From: Streptomyces radicis | GTDB lineage: Bacteria; Actinomycetota; Actinomycetes; Streptomycetales; Streptomycetaceae | Assembly (NCBI RefSeq): GCF_003626575.1 | Contig: NZ_RBDY01000002.1 | Span: 496,001 to 560,000 of the forward strand | DNA length: 64,000 bases | Direction: 5' to 3' | Shown here: positions 39,766 to 62,280 of the stretch, one piece after another | Layout: every line of letters begins with the position of its first letter | Numbering within the stretch: the stretch's first letter is position 1 | Program-made: the position numbers and the translations under genes | The notes under the pieces: model-generated | Database searches by the model: none | What the model was told of the DNA's origin: nothing | The model's input: only the letters and a program-made list of their open reading frames with translations

Positions 39766-40689
39766 GTGGGTGGTGTGATCACCGGCTTCGCCATCATCGC
39801 CACCGTCATCGCCACCGGGTACCTCCTGGGCCGCCGCGGCTCCCTCGGCGACAACGGCCGCGAGGTGCTGACCAGGCTCGGCTTCCATGTGGCCACGCCC
39901 GCACTGCTGTTCGTGACCCTGGCCCACTCCGACCCGGCGCAGCTGTTCTCGCCACCCTTGCTGCTCAGCGCGATCGCGACGCTCGCCACGGCGGGCGTCT
40001 TCATCGCCGTCGGGGCGCTGCGCCGCTGGGGCGCGGGCCGGACCACGATCGGCGCGCTGTGCTCGTCCTATGTCAACGCGGGCAACCTCGGCATCCCCAT
40101 CGCCGTCTATGTCCTGGGCGACGCCTCGCTCGTCGCCCCGATCCTGCTCTTCCAGCAGCTGGTCCTGTCCCCGGTCGCGTTGACGGTCCTCGACCTCACG
40201 GGCCCGTCGGCGGGCCGTCGCACGCCCTGGCAGCGGATCACCACGCCGTTCCGCAACCCCGTCGTCCTCGGCTCGCTCGCCGGGGTCTCGGTCGCCCTCT
40301 CCGGCTGGACCCCGCCGGGCGTCCTGCTCGAACCGGCCACGCTGCTCGGGAACATGGCGGTCCCCGCCGTGCTGCTGGCGTTCGGCATCTCGCTGCGCGG
40401 CAGCCCCGTGCCGGGCCGGGGCCCCGAGCGCGGGCCCGTGCTGCTCTCCGTGGTCCTCAAGTCCTGGGCGCAGCCGCTGATCGCGTGGGCGCTGGCCACG
40501 TGGGTGTTCGACCTGTCGCCCGACGACCGGCTCAACGTCGTGGTGACCGCCGCCCTGCCCGCCGCCCAGAACCTCTTCACCTACGCGTCGCACTACGGCA
40601 CGGCGCCCCAACTGGCCCGCGAGTCCATCCTCCTGTCCACGGCCCTTTCCGTCCCCACCCTGACGGTGACGGCGGCCCTCCTCGGCTGA
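39766..40689 (+). CDS. AEC family transporter (auxin efflux carrier type)
   Basis: A 307-residue membrane protein with about ten helices in two halves, typical of the AEC family. Characteristic stretches are GRRGSLGDNGREVLTRLGFHVATPALLF in helix 1-2 (split), CSSYVNAGNLGIPIAVYVLGD in the first broken helix and AALPAAQNLFTYASHYGT in the second. Such carriers move organic acids or related anions; the substrate is unknown. The GTG at 39766 follows GGAAGGGTGG. It is divergent from the M28 peptidase and convergent with the UbiA gene, so it could export that operon's product, though nothing proves it. Confidence 0.9.
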   Translation: MGGVITGFAIIATVIATGYLLGRRGSLGDNGREVLTRLGFHVATPALLFVTLAHSDPAQLFSPPLLLSAIATLATAGVFIAVGALRRWGAGRTTIGALCSSYVNAGNLGIPIAVYVLGDASLVAPILLFQQLVLSPVALTVLDLTGPSAGRRTPWQRITTPFRNPVVLGSLAGVSVALSGWTPPGVLLEPATLLGNMAVPAVLLAFGISLRGSPVPGRGPERGPVLLSVVLKSWAQPLIAWALATWVFDLSPDDRLNVVVTAALPAAQNLFTYASHYGTAPQLARESILLSTALSVPTLTVTAALLG

Positions 40690-40711: not shown

Positions 40712-41650
40712 TCACACCTCGAGCAGGCGGTGCGTCAGCAGGCCCGACGTGATGACCGCCAGGGTGACGGCGGGGTAGAGGCTCGCGCGGTTGAACAGCG
40801 CCATCGCCAGGGCGGGCGCCGGGTCGCGCAACAGGCGCACGCCCGGCGCGAGCAGCGCGTACGCGCCCAGCGCGAGCACCACCGCGACGCCAGGCGCGCC
40901 CGCCGAGGGGAACGCCGTCCACACCATCCCCGCGCCCGCCACCGCGGCGAGCAGCAGCGCGCCGACCGTGAGCAGGCCGCTCACCCGGTACCCGTAGACC
41001 ACGGGCACGGTGCGCACGCCCAGGTGCACGTCCTCCTCGACGTCGGCCCAGTCGTTGACGATGTTCCGGCCGCCGATCTCCCACGCGGCCAGCCACACGC
41101 AGAACAGCCACAGCTGCGGCCTGTCCACGTGTGGCGTCATCGCGAACCAGCCCAGGCACCCGCCCAGCGCCACCATCACGCCCGTCAGCAGGAACTTGAA
41201 CGGCGTCACCCGCGCCAGCGCGCAGTAGATCGCCTCGAGCAGCGCCGCCACCGCGAGCAGCACCGCGCACACCCAGCTCAGCATCGCCGCGAGCACCAGC
41301 GCGATCGTGCCGAGGCCCAGCACCCACGTCGTCGCCACCGCCGGGCTCAACCGCCCCTGCGCCAGCGGGTGTCGGCCCCCCGCGCCGTCGATGTCGAAGC
41401 CCGAGTACGCCCGCAGGTGCCGGAAACGCTGCCGGTCGAGGCGCGCGTCGATCAGGTCGTTCGACGCGAACACCGCGACATAGCCCGCCAACGCCGCGCC
41501 CAGGCACAGCAGCAGCCGCTCGGGCGGCGGCGTGCTGTCGGCGAGCAGCGCGCCCATGAGCGGCTGCGCCACGCTGAGCGTCGCCTGCGTCCCGCGCGAG
41601 AAGCCGTACAGCGCGCGGACCTGCCCCGGCAGGTCAGTCAGGGCGGCCAT
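40712..41650 (-). CDS. UbiA-family prenyltransferase
   Basis: A 312-residue membrane prenyltransferase with about eight helices. Both Asp-rich motifs are present: NDLIDARLDRQRFRHLRAYS (about 66-85) and IVNDWADVEEDVHLG (about 198-212). The family transfers a polyprenyl chain from its diphosphate to an aromatic acceptor. Two genes upstream in the same operon make and hydroxylate 4-hydroxybenzoate by prediction, so a hydroxybenzoate is the likely acceptor. The ATG at 41650 has GAGGGGAG at good distance; the start lies 17 bases inside the upstream gene. Confidence 0.88.
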   Translation of the reverse strand: MAALTDLPGQVRALYGFSRGTQATLSVAQPLMGALLADSTPPPERLLLCLGAALAGYVAVFASNDLIDARLDRQRFRHLRAYSGFDIDGAGGRHPLAQGRLSPAVATTWVLGLGTIALVLAAMLSWVCAVLLAVAALLEAIYCALARVTPFKFLLTGVMVALGGCLGWFAMTPHVDRPQLWLFCVWLAAWEIGGRNIVNDWADVEEDVHLGVRTVPVVYGYRVSGLLTVGALLLAAVAGAGMVWTAFPSAGAPGVAVVLALGAYALLAPGVRLLRDPAPALAMALFNRASLYPAVTLAVITSGLLTHRLLEV

Positions 41651-42818
41651 CGCCACTCCCCTCGGCGCCCGAGCCGACGTACTGGTGGGCGAACGCCGCG
41701 GCGTGCGGCCCCGGCTCGGCCAGCCGCTCGATCGCGGCCAGCCGCATCCGCAGCGCGAACCGCGGGTCCTCGCCCGGCGGCAGGTGCAGCAGCCGCAACA
41801 GCCGGTCGGAGAACTCCTGGACGCGCCAGATCTCGGCCAGCCGCCGCCCCGAGTACGCGGCGAGCGCCCCGGCGTCGCCCTCCCGCAGGCCGCGCACCAG
41901 CGCCTCGGCCGCGCCCGCGGCGTCGGCGATCGCGAGGTTCATGCCCTTGGCGCCCGAGGGCGTCAGCACGTGCGCCGCGTCCCCGGCCAGCAGCAGCCGC
42001 CCGTGGCGCAGCGGCTCGGTGACGCTGCTGCGCATCCGCAGCACGCGCACCTCGGGGAGGCTCTCGATGCGCGGCAACGGCGTGAGGCGCGCGTGCAGTT
42101 GCTCGCGGATCCTGCGCGCCGGCCAGTGCGCCTCCGTGTCACCGGCGGCGCACTGGAGGTAGAAGCGGCTCAGGTGCCTCGTGCGCGGCATCATCCCCGC
42201 GAAGCCCTCCGCGCCCACCGCGTAGACCACGCCGGGGGCCGCCTCGTCCACCTCGGCGAGCACCGTCAGCCAGTCGTACGGGTAGCGGTGCGGGACGACG
42301 CGGTGCGCGCGCGGCAGCGCGGCGCGCGAGACGCCGCGGAAGCCGTCGCAGCCGACGACGTAGTCGCAGGCGATCTCCAGGGTGTCGCACCGGACGCGCG
42401 GGCGGGTGGTGTCGATGTCCGCGACGGCGCGCACCGTCTGCGAGAACAACGGCCGCACGCCCCCGCGCCCCAGCGCCTCGATCAGGTCGCGGACGAGGAA
42501 CTGCTGCGGATAGACCCAGTGCGCATGGCCGCCCGAGAGCGTTCCGTAGTCCACCCTGACGGATCGGTCCAGGCACCGGAAGTCGCACCAGCCGTGCCGC
42601 ACGCCGTCGGAGAGCAGCCGCCCGGCGAGACCGTGGCGCCGCAGCGTGGCGACCGTGCGGTGCTCGAGGAGCCCGGCGCGCGCCCGCGCCTCGACATGCG
42701 CCCGCGAACGCCGTTCCACCACACGGCAGTCCACCCCCGCGCGCGTGAGCACGTTCGCCAGCACCAGACCCGCGGGTCCCGCGCCGATGATGGCCACCTG
42801 GGTACGCAGCCGCCGCAT
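41634..42818 (-). CDS. 4-hydroxybenzoate 3-monooxygenase-like flavoprotein
   Basis: A 394-residue FAD-dependent aromatic hydroxylase of the PobA type. The dinucleotide-binding start VAIIGAGPAGLVLANVLTRAG, the DG motif region VGCDGFRGVSR and the second FAD motif LLLAGDAAHVLTPSGAKGMN are intact. The substrate-loop segment LSRFYLQC aligns with the SRYYVQ segment of PobA. It should hydroxylate 4-hydroxybenzoate to protocatechuate or a related compound. Protocatechuate ring-cleavage genes are absent, so it is more likely biosynthetic than catabolic. GGAAGAG precedes the ATG; 12 bases separate it from the lyase gene. Confidence 0.87.
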   Translation of the reverse strand: MRRLRTQVAIIGAGPAGLVLANVLTRAGVDCRVVERRSRAHVEARARAGLLEHRTVATLRRHGLAGRLLSDGVRHGWCDFRCLDRSVRVDYGTLSGGHAHWVYPQQFLVRDLIEALGRGGVRPLFSQTVRAVADIDTTRPRVRCDTLEIACDYVVGCDGFRGVSRAALPRAHRVVPHRYPYDWLTVLAEVDEAAPGVVYAVGAEGFAGMMPRTRHLSRFYLQCAAGDTEAHWPARRIREQLHARLTPLPRIESLPEVRVLRMRSSVTEPLRHGRLLLAGDAAHVLTPSGAKGMNLAIADAAGAAEALVRGLREGDAGALAAYSGRRLAEIWRVQEFSDRLLRLLHLPPGEDPRFALRMRLAAIERLAEPGPHAAAFAHQYVGSGAEGSGDGRPD

Positions 42819-42830
42819 GACTCTTCCACC

Positions 42831-43553
42831 TCACCCGGCGGGAACGGTGCCGGGGTTGAACAGCTCGTCGATCAGGGCAAGCGGCTCGTCGCCGTGCCAG
42901 ACCAGATACGTCTTGTAGCAGGCGGGTCTTGTCACGCCCCCCTCGCCGCGCCACGCGCGCCGGCCCGCGTCGAGCAGCGTGCGCCGGTGGCCCGTGCCCG
43001 CCGCGTGCAGCGCGGGCCCGAGCGGGATCGAGGTGCTGGTCAGACACGCCTGGATCCCCGGGGCGAGGCCGAGGCGCGCCACGACGTGGTTCACCGAGAG
43101 GGCGGGGCCGCCGCGCCGCGTCGTGGCGGAGTACCGCACCAGGACGTCCCCGCCCGCGTCGATCCGGAGCAGCGGCGGAACGCCGTCGCCGGTCGCGTGG
43201 GCGGGGGCTCGTAATTGCGCGAGACAGCGGAGATGCAACGATTCACCAGCCATGGCCTCGAGCAACGTGGTGGTCAGCCCCTCGCTCGTGAGCAGCATGC
43301 GGGTCAGGGGGGAGGCGAAGCGGCGGATCTTGGTGCGCGGGTCGGCGGCGCCGCCGAGCGCGGCGCCGAAGATGGCGTCGAGCGGGACGTCGAGGGGGAC
43401 GTCGAGCGGGAACTCCAGGGGGAACGATCGGGGTGGGACCGAGGGGGGGAGCGGGGGGCCGCCCACCGGGCGGGCGGGGCCGCGCGCGGGATCGGCGGGG
43501 CGGCCCGCGGGATGGGCGGGTTGGAAGACGCCACACGGCGTCGGAACCGACAT
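42831..43553 (-). CDS. Chorismate lyase-like (DUF98/UbiC-type) protein
   Basis: A 240-residue protein whose second half (about 80-240) matches DUF98-type chorismate lyases such as Rv2949c: RMLLTSEGLTTTLLEAMAGE, then IPLGPALHAAG, then YKTYLVWHGDEPLALIDELF with the conserved Glu. The family releases pyruvate from chorismate to give 4-hydroxybenzoate. One family Glu (in the AESL segment) appears replaced by Asn (SVNHVV), so activity needs testing. The N-terminal 75 residues are Pro-rich with a PLDV repeat. The ATG at 43553 has GAGGAG 8 nt upstream. Confidence 0.72.
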   Translation of the reverse strand: MSVPTPCGVFQPAHPAGRPADPARGPARPVGGPPLPPSVPPRSFPLEFPLDVPLDVPLDAIFGAALGGAADPRTKIRRFASPLTRMLLTSEGLTTTLLEAMAGESLHLRCLAQLRAPAHATGDGVPPLLRIDAGGDVLVRYSATTRRGGPALSVNHVVARLGLAPGIQACLTSTSIPLGPALHAAGTGHRRTLLDAGRRAWRGEGGVTRPACYKTYLVWHGDEPLALIDELFNPGTVPAG

Positions 43554-43660
43554 CTTGATCACTCCTCACCGGCATGCATCCTCAAGGGCCAACGCGCGTC
43601 GGCCCTTCAGGTCACGGCCCGGCCCCGCCCGCACGGGGGCGCGGGTGGAGAATCCATGGC

Positions 43661-44593
43661 ATGGCTCCCGCAGACTCCTCCCGCGCGCCGTCGCCCGCGC
43701 CGCGCACCTACGACGAGTTGCTCGCCGCCCTCCAGGACCGGCGCGACGCGCTGACCCGGTCCCAGCGGCTCCTCGCGGAGCGGGTGATGGCGGATCCCGA
43801 GGGCGTGGCGTTCATGACCGTCTCCGAGCTGGCCGCGGCCGTCGGCGTCAACGAGGCGACCGTCGTGCGCTTCGCCACCGGGCTCGGGCTCGAGGGCTAC
43901 CCGGGCCTGACCCGGCTGTGCCGGGAGCGGCTGCGCGAACAGGCGCAGCTGCTGCGGCGTTACCGCACGCTCGAACAGCTCGACACGGAGGGCGAGGAGG
44001 GCGAGGGCGACCTGCTCGACCGCGTGGTGGCGCTGGACAGCGCGAACATCGCGCGGACCTTCGCGCGGGTCGAGCGCGAGACGTTCTCCGCGGCGGTGCG
44101 GGCGCTCGCCGAGGCGCCGCGGGTGCACGTGATGGGGCTGCGCAAGTGCCATGCCCCGGCCTATCTGCTGGGCTATCTGCTGCGGATGGTGCGCGACGAG
44201 GTGGCGACGCTGACGACCGGGGCAGGGACGCTCACCGACGATCTGCGGCGGGTGCGGGAGGGCGACTGCTTCGTGGCGCTCTCGATATACCGCTACACCG
44301 CCGAGACGGTGCGCGCGCTGGAGTTCGCGAGGGAACGGGGCGCGCGCTGCGTGGTGTTGACGGACAACCCCGCGTCGCCGCTCGTGGCCCCCGCGGACCA
44401 CGTCTTCTACGTCGAGGCGTCGGGGCCCTCGGTGCTGCGCTCGCTGACGGCGTTCACGGCGCTCGTGCAGGCGCTCGCGGCCGGGGTCGCGCGGGCGCGT
44501 GGGCAGGACGTGCGCTCCTCGCTGCTGCGCGAGGAGGAGCTGCTGGAACGGTTCAGCGTGTACGAGGCGCGCTTTCCCCCGTCGACGCGGTGA
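43661..44593 (+). CDS. MurR/RpiR family transcriptional regulator
   Basis: A 310-residue regulator: N-terminal HTH_6 domain (about 15-95; VMADPEGVAFMTVSELAAAV and NEATVVRFATGLGLEGYPGL) and C-terminal SIS sugar-isomerase-like sensor domain (about 140-275; VHVMGLRKCHAPAYLLGYLL and VVLTDNPASPLVAPADHVF). SIS domains usually bind phosphosugars. It is divergent from the chorismate lyase operon and convergent with the aminotransferase gene, overlapping its end by 41 bases. It could control either neighbour. ATG at 43661 has GGAG 10 nt upstream. Confidence 0.9.
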   Translation: MAPADSSRAPSPAPRTYDELLAALQDRRDALTRSQRLLAERVMADPEGVAFMTVSELAAAVGVNEATVVRFATGLGLEGYPGLTRLCRERLREQAQLLRRYRTLEQLDTEGEEGEGDLLDRVVALDSANIARTFARVERETFSAAVRALAEAPRVHVMGLRKCHAPAYLLGYLLRMVRDEVATLTTGAGTLTDDLRRVREGDCFVALSIYRYTAETVRALEFARERGARCVVLTDNPASPLVAPADHVFYVEASGPSVLRSLTAFTALVQALAAGVARARGQDVRSSLLREEELLERFSVYEARFPPSTR

Positions 44594-45833
44594 CGGGCCC
44601 CGTCGTGAGACCGGCCAGGGCGGCGCGCAGCCGCGCGAGCGCGTCGGCGACCCAGGGCAGGGCCAGGGGGTCGGGGGCGCGCAGCGCGCGCCAACGCTCC
44701 TCGTCCGTCTCGCCGTAGAGCAGGCTCGTGGCCACCCGGACGCGCAGCGCCTCGGGCGCGTCGCCGAACGCCTCGCCCGGCAGCACGCCGACCCCGTGCC
44801 GCTCGAGCAACGCGGTGGCGAGCGCGGCGCCTTGGGTGACGCCGCGGGCGGCGAGGGCGTCGCGCAGGGGTGCGAAGTCGGGGTAGAGGTAGAAGCCGGC
44901 GGTGGGCGGGCGGCACAGCGCCCCCGCGGCGGTGAACTCGGCGTGCACGGCGCGCGCGACCGTTGCGTGCAGGCGTCTTGCCGCCGCTATGTGCGCCGTC
45001 ACGCCGGGCGGATCGGCGAGGACATGGGCGGCGACGGCCTGCATGGGGGCGGCCAGGCTCGACCACACCTCGCTCGCCACGCCGGTGAGCTCCGACCGCA
45101 GCGCGTCGCCCCAGGGCCCGGCGGGCAGCCGCGCGAAGCCGATGCGCCAGCCGCCGAGCGCGAGGGACTTGCTGAGCCCGCTGGTCACCACGGTGCGCTC
45201 GGGGTGGAGCGCGGCGGCGCCCGGCGGGCGCGTCCCGTCGTGGACGAGCTCGGCGTAGATCTCGTCGGCGATCACGGCCAGGCCGTGCCGTTCGGCCAAC
45301 GCGCACACGGCACGCAGCCGTTCGGGGTCGGCGACGGTGCCCGTGGGGTTGTCGGGGACGGTCAGCACCAGCACGCCGGGGCGGCTCTCGCGCAGCACGG
45401 TGGCCAGCCGCTCGGGGTCGGGAACGCCGCCCGCCCCTTCGGCCGGGATGTCCACGCCGATGACGCGCTTCCCGGCGAGCGCGCTCTGCGCCGCGTAGCT
45501 GACCCAGGCCGGGCGCGGCAGGACGACATCGCCGGGGAGCGCGGCGATGAGGGCGTAGAGCAGGGCCTTGCTGCCCGGCGCGAACACGATCTGGCGCGCC
45601 CCGGTGTCGAGCCCGCGCCGGGTGAACCACCCGGCCGCCGCCTCGCGCGCCTCGGCGGAGCCGACCACGGGGCCGTAGCCGTTGCGGCCCGCCGCGGCGG
45701 CAAGGCGCTCGGCGATCTCGTCGGGGACCGGCAACCCGGCCTCGCCGAACGCCAGATGCAGCAGCCGCTCCCCGGCCGCGCGCCGGGCGCGAATGGTCTC
45801 GTCGATGGCCAGGGTTGCCGAGTGGATCACCAT
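44553..45833 (-). CDS. Class I/II pyridoxal-phosphate aminotransferase
   Basis: A 426-residue fold-type I aminotransferase. Cofactor contacts are clear: LTVPDNPTGTVADPERL, VIADEIYAELVHDG and the catalytic lysine in VTSGLSKSLALGGWRIGFARL (near residue 225). It transfers an amino group between an amino acid and a 2-oxo acid; the substrate cannot be read. The ATG at 45833 is 7 bases from a -10-like TAGAAC on the minus strand, suggesting a leaderless mRNA. Its last 41 bases overlap the end of the convergent MurR/RpiR gene. Confidence 0.9.
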   Translation of the reverse strand: MVIHSATLAIDETIRARRAAGERLLHLAFGEAGLPVPDEIAERLAAAAGRNGYGPVVGSAEAREAAAGWFTRRGLDTGARQIVFAPGSKALLYALIAALPGDVVLPRPAWVSYAAQSALAGKRVIGVDIPAEGAGGVPDPERLATVLRESRPGVLVLTVPDNPTGTVADPERLRAVCALAERHGLAVIADEIYAELVHDGTRPPGAAALHPERTVVTSGLSKSLALGGWRIGFARLPAGPWGDALRSELTGVASEVWSSLAAPMQAVAAHVLADPPGVTAHIAAARRLHATVARAVHAEFTAAGALCRPPTAGFYLYPDFAPLRDALAARGVTQGAALATALLERHGVGVLPGEAFGDAPEALRVRVATSLLYGETDEERWRALRAPDPLALPWVADALARLRAALAGLTTGPVTASTGESAPRTR

Positions 45834-45834
45834 G

Positions 45835-45870
45835 ATGCAGGTTCTACTGCATACAGATAGGTGAATGCAA
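45835..45870 (-). promoter_or_regulatory. Probable leaderless promoter and operator of the aminotransferase
   Basis: On the minus strand, TTGCAT (45865-45870), an 18-base spacer and TAGAAC (45841-45846) form a sigma-70-type promoter whose start would be at or next to the ATG. The inverted repeat ATGCAG-N6-CTGCAT (45835-45852) is centred on the -10 element, an ideal position for a repressor. Confidence 0.6.

Positions 45871-60036: not shown

Positions 60037-62280
<2,244 letters not shown>

Follow-up and report, generated by a model that had tools for sequence, protein, structure and literature searches.

The head of the ubiquinone (Ubi/Coq) pathway comprises a lyase, a prenyltransferase, a ring hydroxylase, a methyltransferase and a polyprenyl synthase. 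Among the systems closest to the one described here is the xiamenmycin cluster ximA-E of Streptomyces xiamenensis 318, which lies in a genomic island (200,207-261,593) and for whose gene ximC, containing two TTA codons, control by bldA has been proposed (PMC4705527); the chorismate lyase activity of XimC was demonstrated in vitro (PMC4053376). A further reference is the 4-hydroxybenzoate hydroxylase PobA (PHBH), in which Tyr201, Arg214, Tyr222 and Pro293 are fully conserved and position 212 is occupied by Ser in 97% and by Thr in 3% of the sequences (PMC6315137). Conservation of Ser212 across clades is also described in the work on the protocatechuate hydroxylase XaPobA (structures 8jqo/8jqp), whose S212A variant has little activity and whose specificity sites are 199, 201, 210 and 385 (PMC10770758), and a review lists T294A, L199V and Y385F as substitutions that favour the acceptance of protocatechuate by PobA (PMC9063093). 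In the present work we analysed a stretch of 64,000 nucleotides from Streptomyces radicis (NCBI RefSeq assembly GCF_003626575.1, contig NZ_RBDY01000002.1, positions 496,001 to 560,000; hereafter the window), which contains a chorismate-lyase-like gene, a pobA-like gene and a ubiA-like prenyltransferase gene, referred to as the trio.

We consider it probable, on the basis of sequence comparison, that the trio is a conserved, coherent and translationally coupled biosynthetic operon making a (poly)prenylated dihydroxybenzoate. No paper on this trio was found in the open-licence PMC literature, mostly judged from listings, where the relevant papers were the two on xiamenmycin. A membrane prenyltransferase of Streptomyces dihydroxyphenazine biosynthesis is reportedly the subject of another paper (PMC4044012), and a review is said to cover prenylated aromatics (PMC12525779).

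Gene order and conservation of the trio

The three open reading frames (ORFs; Table 1) follow each other in the order lyase, pobA, ubiA, with 12 bases (42819-42830) between the first two and an overlap of 17 bases (41634-41650) between the last two. Position, common direction, gap and overlap had been given in the same way by the first-pass annotation, which a model made from the letters and a list of ORFs, and are all borne out by the ORF coordinates. The G+C content at third codon positions of the lyase-, pobA- and ubiA-like ORFs (0.908, 0.957 and 0.981, respectively) is at the level of coding genes. Alternative GTG starts would extend the lyase-like ORF to 42831-43562 and the ubiA-like ORF to 40712-41656; in the lyase gene, the conserved ATG (MSVPTP...) at 43553 has GAGGAG upstream.

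In what follows, G and L numbers denote the genomes and the loci compared, G000 being the genome of the window (7.57 Mb; window at G000:C2:496001-560000). The trio is contiguous in 13 species (the window, L053-L056, L033, L034, L068, L070, L071, L074, L075 and L076; L069 and L054 are one record, hence this count). The same order and strand in 12 other species indicate that the arrangement is more than chance. One more species, G056, contains a split trio (contig C10; L039, L073), in which lyase and pobA lie about 32 kb from a methyltransferase gene and ubiA. The three genes do therefore co-occur in other genomes, a point that the first-pass annotation had left to be checked. In an even sample of 392 genomes of the genus, a UbiA ortholog (E<=1e-20) was present in 10, all of which contained lyase and PobA as well, with the three genes adjacent in 9 cases. 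The class-wide UbiA search retrieved 4 out of 394 genomes, that is G000, G056, G098 and one with a distant protein (34%, L077), within whose 20 kb no lyase or PobA match was found. The nearest named relative among the genomes compared is Streptomyces sp. SBT349 (L056), whose three proteins are 83-87% identical to those of the window.

Several relatives contain additional genes at the locus. In L074-L076 a polyprenyl synthase and an S-adenosylmethionine (SAM) methyltransferase are encoded upstream of the trio on the same strand, the methyltransferase immediately before the lyase (PF00348 was matched in L074 and L075, Methyltransf_25 in L075 and L076). In L033 and L034 a methyltransferase gene starts less than 10 bases after ubiA and is followed by a convergent polyprenyl synthase gene and an acyltransferase-like gene (Pfam-tested in L033), and in G056 (L073) a methyltransferase gene adjoins ubiA. 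The occurrence of methyltransferase and polyprenyl synthase at these loci argues for biosynthesis. The L075 methyltransferase was used to query 15 genomes, 11 bearing the locus and 4 bearing only the lyase-pobA pair. An ortholog (63-100%, L075 itself included) was found in 6 of the 11, and in 5 of these 6 a polyprenyl synthase gene stands beside the locus; the window-clade genomes (G000, G404, G532, G328, G435) gave matches of only 34-36%, and the pair-only genomes a weak match in two cases and none in the other two. Since the methyltransferase reaches no curated model cut-off, it may be an O- or a C-methyltransferase. A UbiA tree, built to distinguish loss of the methyltransferase from its gain, gave no answer because the outgroup branch was too long. 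The neighbouring polyprenyl synthases have an Ala five residues before the DDxxD motif, which, by a rule for such enzymes, suggests a chain longer than farnesyl. The best model for the polyprenyl synthases of L075 (5335-6555) and L033 (11132-12190) was that of the family 2 encapsulin cargo polyprenyl transferase, well below its cut-off.

The three encoded proteins

The PobA-like protein matches PF01494 (FAD_binding_3; 225.9 bits, cut-off 22) and passes NCBIfam NF006091 (PHBH subfamily; 379.5 bits, cut-off 351). It is below the strict equivalog TIGR02360 (288 vs. 538.7 bits), as are the ordinary PobAs of G458 and G389 (468-478 bits); among solved structures it comes closest to 8jqq and 8jqo/8jqp (280.8 bits). 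With respect to PHBH PobA and XaPobA, the family match is full-length and Arg44, Tyr201, Arg214, Tyr222, Pro293 and Tyr385 are retained, whereas Met212, Gly210, Val199 and Ser294 are different, replacing Ser212, Leu210, Leu199 and Thr294 of PHBH. A search of 394 genomes of the family with this protein gave 286 matches at 1e-40, with a score drop from 337.8 to 298.1 bits between places 26 and 27. All 26 PobAs above this gap, window protein included, contain Gly210, Met212 and Val or Ile199; Cys75 and Ser or Ala294 are present in 25 of them, the exception being L145, which differs also at positions 72, 185 and 222 (His222). Leu210 and Ser212 were found in four PobAs below the gap, in four further PobAs of locus-bearing genomes and in Pseudomonas fluorescens PobA. 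The Met212/Gly210 signature was seen in 20 out of 20 PobAs with a lyase at most 4 kb away, a set that overlaps the 26, and the PobAs of L033 and L034 contain in addition Phe385. The pocket of this subfamily may thus take a 3-substituted 4-hydroxybenzoate. The gene had been annotated as a PobA-type 4-hydroxybenzoate hydroxylase; it is not an ordinary PobA (Met212, Gly210), so that more than one substrate and order of steps come into question.

The idea that a Met212-type PobA is always linked to a lyase was rejected: a lyase shares a 3-4 kb locus with 10 of the 26, the PobA of G036 has one about 3.5 kb away, and the remaining 15 have none in about 18 kb. Those without a lyase are often placed between genes that we take, by eye and from sequence only, to be ctaB-like and ctaA-like. 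In another genus (L035-L038, L171-L175, L178, L180 and L181) the Met212-type PobA likewise stands between such ctaB- and ctaA-like genes, only some of the genomes have a lyase with it, and downstream lies a conserved gene encoding about 110 amino acids.

The window lyase gave no family match at E 0.001 in Pfam or NCBIfam. Among 10 scanned relatives, three exceed the cut-off of 22 bits of PF01947 (Rv2949c-like/DUF98), namely L033, which is a trio ortholog (23.7), L035 (28.2) and L041 (29.2), four are below it and three have no match; at E<=1 PF01947 is matched by 22 of 30 aligned relatives. A profile built from these 30 sequences retrieves 2nwi, a DUF98 structure, with E 2.4e-11. The earlier label of DUF98-type chorismate lyase-like protein is supported by relatives: some of them, and not the window protein itself, clear PF01947. 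All 30 aligned sequences contain Arg143 and Glu233, which are placed at Arg77 and Glu156 of Escherichia coli UbiC (Met counted), though in an alignment with E 0.085; the two UbiC residues have a catalytic role. AlphaFold2 models of the full-length lyase and of its core (5 rows each) had mean predicted local distance difference test values of 37.9 and 46.2, too low for use, and the Foldseek search with the core model, in which 2nwi occupied ranks 1-3 (E 0.059-0.13, template modelling score 0.24-0.27), was not taken as evidence. Relatives of the lyase (E<=1e-3) were found in 25 of 297 genomes of the family, and several of the loci examined contain neither this PobA nor this UbiA.

The relationship with XimC was analysed in G238, which is very probably the genome of S. 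xiamenensis 318: the region G238:C1:206000-225900 contains ORFs of 520 and 313 amino acids, the sizes of XimA and XimB (PMC4053376). Beside them, an ORF that is probably XimC matches the lyase profile with E 3.1e-9 among 143 ORFs, and the xim lyase is therefore a relative of the trio lyase; in direct comparison, the window protein is 32% identical to it over 119 amino acids (E 2.1e-4). A second, separate lyase-pobA-ubiA set is present in G238 at 1.48 Mb, apart from xim.

The UbiA-like protein matches PF01040 with 106.3 bits (cut-off 34.2) and reaches the cut-off of no named NCBIfam subfamily, the best being TIGR01475 (55 of 180.8 bits). The distant homolog in L077 (G945, another family of the class) is without one Asp of motif 1.

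Codon conservation in the lyase gene and surroundings of the locus

In the eight window-clade lyases, the TTA codon encodes Leu117 (counted from GTG). The five other trio lyases that were aligned have no leucine at this position (L033 has a TTA near the start), and no TTA was found in the pobA or ubiA genes of the 10 trios checked. In 13 lyases, 11 of the 351 leucine codons are TTA, 8 of them at the Leu117 site. Since TTA occurs in 6 out of 60 crudely called window ORFs, a single TTA is not rare; what is rare is its conservation. In the same eight genes, the sole invariant codons with A or T at the wobble base, or TTG, are GAA, TTG and TTA, which fall within 11 codons (GAATCGTTGC, then TTA), and comparable invariant codons are found neither in pobA (172 codons) nor in ubiA (146 codons). 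The invariance of GAA and TTG near TTA, with none such in the other two genes, suggests a DNA-level element as an alternative: whether or not the TTA acts as a bldA codon, GAATCGTTGC together with it could form a regulatory site inside the gene.

Table 1. Features of the lyase-pobA-ubiA locus, in coordinates of the window.
Feature	Position	Strand	Basis or remark
Chorismate-lyase-like gene (XimC/Rv2949c-like), operon gene 1	42831..43553	minus	240 amino acids from conserved ATG
PobA-like flavin hydroxylase, Met212/Gly210 subfamily	41634..42818	minus	family models, residue alignment
UbiA-superfamily prenyltransferase	40712..41650 (ATG)	minus	PF01040, Asp-rich motifs
TTA leucine codon, possible bldA control	43212..43214	minus	conserved in 8/8 window-clade lyases
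GAATCGTTGC	43235..43244	minus	identical in these 8 lyase genes, wobble bases included
Met codon at the PHBH Ser212 position	42189..42191	minus	alignment
UbiA Asp-rich motif 1, NDLIDARLD	41435..41461	minus	sequence motif
UbiA Asp-rich motif 2, NDWADVEED	41030..41056	minus	sequence motif
RpiR/SIS-type regulator, divergent from the trio	43574..44593	plus	adjoins the trio in L053 and L056 too; putative pathway role
Membrane transport gene (PF03547), convergent, operon boundary	39766..40689	plus	beside the trio also in L053-L056, L068, L070, L071

Inclusion of the trio in a larger cluster was considered and is unsupported in the window, the scanned neighbours being a membrane transport gene, an M28 peptidase, an RpiR-type regulator and a photolyase; neighbours similar to these recur around the trio across the window clade. 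A scan for sigma-70 promoters and terminators found nothing, with a result close to that of shuffled sequences. The interval from the divergent regulator to the photolyase contains, at about 44553-45860 on the minus strand, an aminotransferase-like gene (named by reading), present in L053 too; L054, L056 and L068 have in its place a NAD-binding/DUF2867-like gene (Pfam-tested in L054 only). Farther away, a 730-amino-acid ORF at 60088-62280 (plus strand), with similar ORFs in L055, L068, L070 and L071, looks like a bifunctional geosmin synthase.

Proposed pathway, alternatives and related systems

From the gene content, synteny, co-occurrence, XimC homology, residue signature and codon conservation described above, we infer enzyme activities, order of steps, chain length and regulation as follows. 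The XimC-like lyase, by homology to the proven enzyme, would convert chorismate into 4-hydroxybenzoate and pyruvate. The membrane-bound UbiA, judging from its family and motifs, would prenylate the ring at a position ortho to its 4-hydroxyl with an isoprenoid chain, and the PobA-type enzyme would add a hydroxyl, likewise ortho to that group, either earlier or later than the prenylation, so that the expected product is a prenylated 3,4-dihydroxybenzoate. In the sister species the product is probably also methylated, with a chain that the polyprenyl synthase encoded nearby would supply. Because the first gene contains the TTA codon, bldA may gate the entry step of the pathway, as proposed for ximC.

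Several results weigh against this proposal. The window lyase scores only 13.6 bits with PF01947, over 28 residues near its end; 7 of its 30 aligned relatives weakly match the UTRA ligand-binding domain (best E 0.0017), and it shows no significant resemblance to E. coli UbiC. The UbiA is far below TIGR01474, the model of 4-hydroxybenzoate octaprenyltransferase (46 vs. 275.45 bits), and the PobA lacks Ser212 and, being without a lyase in 15 of the 26 subfamily members, is not tied to it. For the methyltransferase and the L075-type polyprenyl synthase, the best matches in the window genome reach 35% and 39%, respectively, so that neither has a close ortholog there. Moreover, two adjacent matches to PF00775 (intradiol dioxygenase) were found elsewhere in this genome, at C21:64221-65344. 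The absence of ring-cleavage genes claimed by the first-pass annotation thus holds for intradiol dioxygenases within the window and not for the genome; extradiol genes were not searched.

These results bear on four other explanations. It is unlikely, although it deserves consideration, that lyase and PobA produce protocatechuate or gallate, i.e. a (poly)hydroxybenzoate for other use (antioxidant, chelator or precursor), while UbiA acts on something else. Four genomes of another genus (L035-L038) do contain the lyase and Met212-PobA pair while lacking this UbiA, and Val199 and Ser294, together with Phe385 in L033 and L034, resemble the changes that enable PobA to act on protocatechuate (PMC10770758, PMC9063093); against this, ubiA is coupled by the 17-base overlap and in the genus sample never occurs without the other two genes (10/10), and relatives' loci include the methyltransferase and the polyprenyl synthase. 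That PobA serves catabolism, supplying protocatechuate to pca genes elsewhere in the genome, seems quite improbable. The PF00775 pair and the fact that the window PobA is the only one of its genome (E<=1e-50) would fit, but making 4-hydroxybenzoate from chorismate merely to burn it would be futile. PF00775 is matched in 8 of the 11 locus-bearing genomes (weakly in G098 and G238) and has no match in the three trio genomes G532, G328 and G435, and ordinary Ser212 PobAs stand apart from the trio, beside a PF00775 gene in G389 and about 2 kb from one in G458.

We regard as equally improbable that the first gene encodes a UTRA-like binding protein of the same superfamily, in an operon using imported 4-hydroxybenzoate: the sub-threshold PF01947 score, the UTRA matches and the lack of significant similarity to UbiC are in line with it, and the invariance of Arg143 and Glu233, the passing score of L033 and the kinship with XimC argue against it. 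The least probable explanation is a xiamenmycin-like benzopyran pathway with its remaining genes elsewhere in the genome. The common lyase family and the combination of lyase, UbiA and flavin enzyme speak for it; the PobA-like nature of the flavin enzyme, the low identity of UbiA to XimB (27% over 244 amino acids), the lack of XimA or XimE type genes among the 8 scanned neighbours and the presence of both loci, separate, in the probable S. xiamenensis genome speak against it.

Returning to a prenylated dihydroxybenzoate as the product, a bolder version, which we hold only tentatively and regard as doubtful, is that a PobA scaffold was re-tooled to hydroxylate prenylated 4-hydroxybenzoate, the job of COQ6/UbiI, and that with the sister-locus genes it gives streptomycetes a pathway to polyprenyl catechols or vanillates, redox lipids resembling ubiquinone precursors. 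In such an enzyme Gly210, Val199 and Ser294 would admit the chain, and the end of the pocket that receives the carboxylate would be reshaped by Met212. The actinomycete phylum is not known to make ubiquinone.

At least 14 streptomycetes thus have a locus that points to prenylated hydroxybenzoates of an uncharacterised class; one of them is very probably the laboratory strain S. xiamenensis 318, which has a known second pathway from the same precursor. Substrate recognition in a textbook enzyme could be tested with this natural PobA subfamily, where a residue reported to be near-universal is replaced, and the TTA codons in the lyase genes of both pathways (window clade and ximC) make bldA gating of the chorismate drain a testable idea. 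The interpretation of the first-pass annotation is sustained in part, by synteny, XimC homology and the biosynthetic additions in relatives, and is to be corrected as regards ring cleavage at genome level and the nature of the PobA; the xiamenmycin likeness is confined to lyase and UbiA.

As for that likeness, the trio and ximA-E (PMC4053376, PMC4705527) share a lyase of the same family, a UbiA-superfamily prenyltransferase (XimB in xiamenmycin), a flavin enzyme and TTA codons within the lyase gene. They differ in that the flavin enzyme of the trio is PobA-like whereas XimD is an epoxidase, in the distance of the two prenyltransferases, and in their separate location in what is probably the S. 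xiamenensis genome; a Pfam scan of 8 ORFs of the stretch, those of the trio among them and the rest of the window not scanned, found no gene of the XimD, XimE or XimA type. The earlier comparison with xiamenmycin, which had noted the PobA-like oxygenase and the missing genes, is right as far as lyase and UbiA are concerned and goes no further. In PMC4705527, reverse transcription PCR is described for a chorismate lyase and a prenyltransferase gene called "ubi genes", apparently without naming their loci, so that this work may already touch the trio locus. The fuller relatives look nearer to the head of the ubiquinone pathway, the only part of it compared. The trio differs from it in a lyase not significantly similar to UbiC, a UbiA under the TIGR01474 cut-off and a hydroxylase of the PobA family instead of UbiI/COQ6; yet, once the sister loci add their methyltransferase and polyprenyl synthase, it would fill the same chemical roles.

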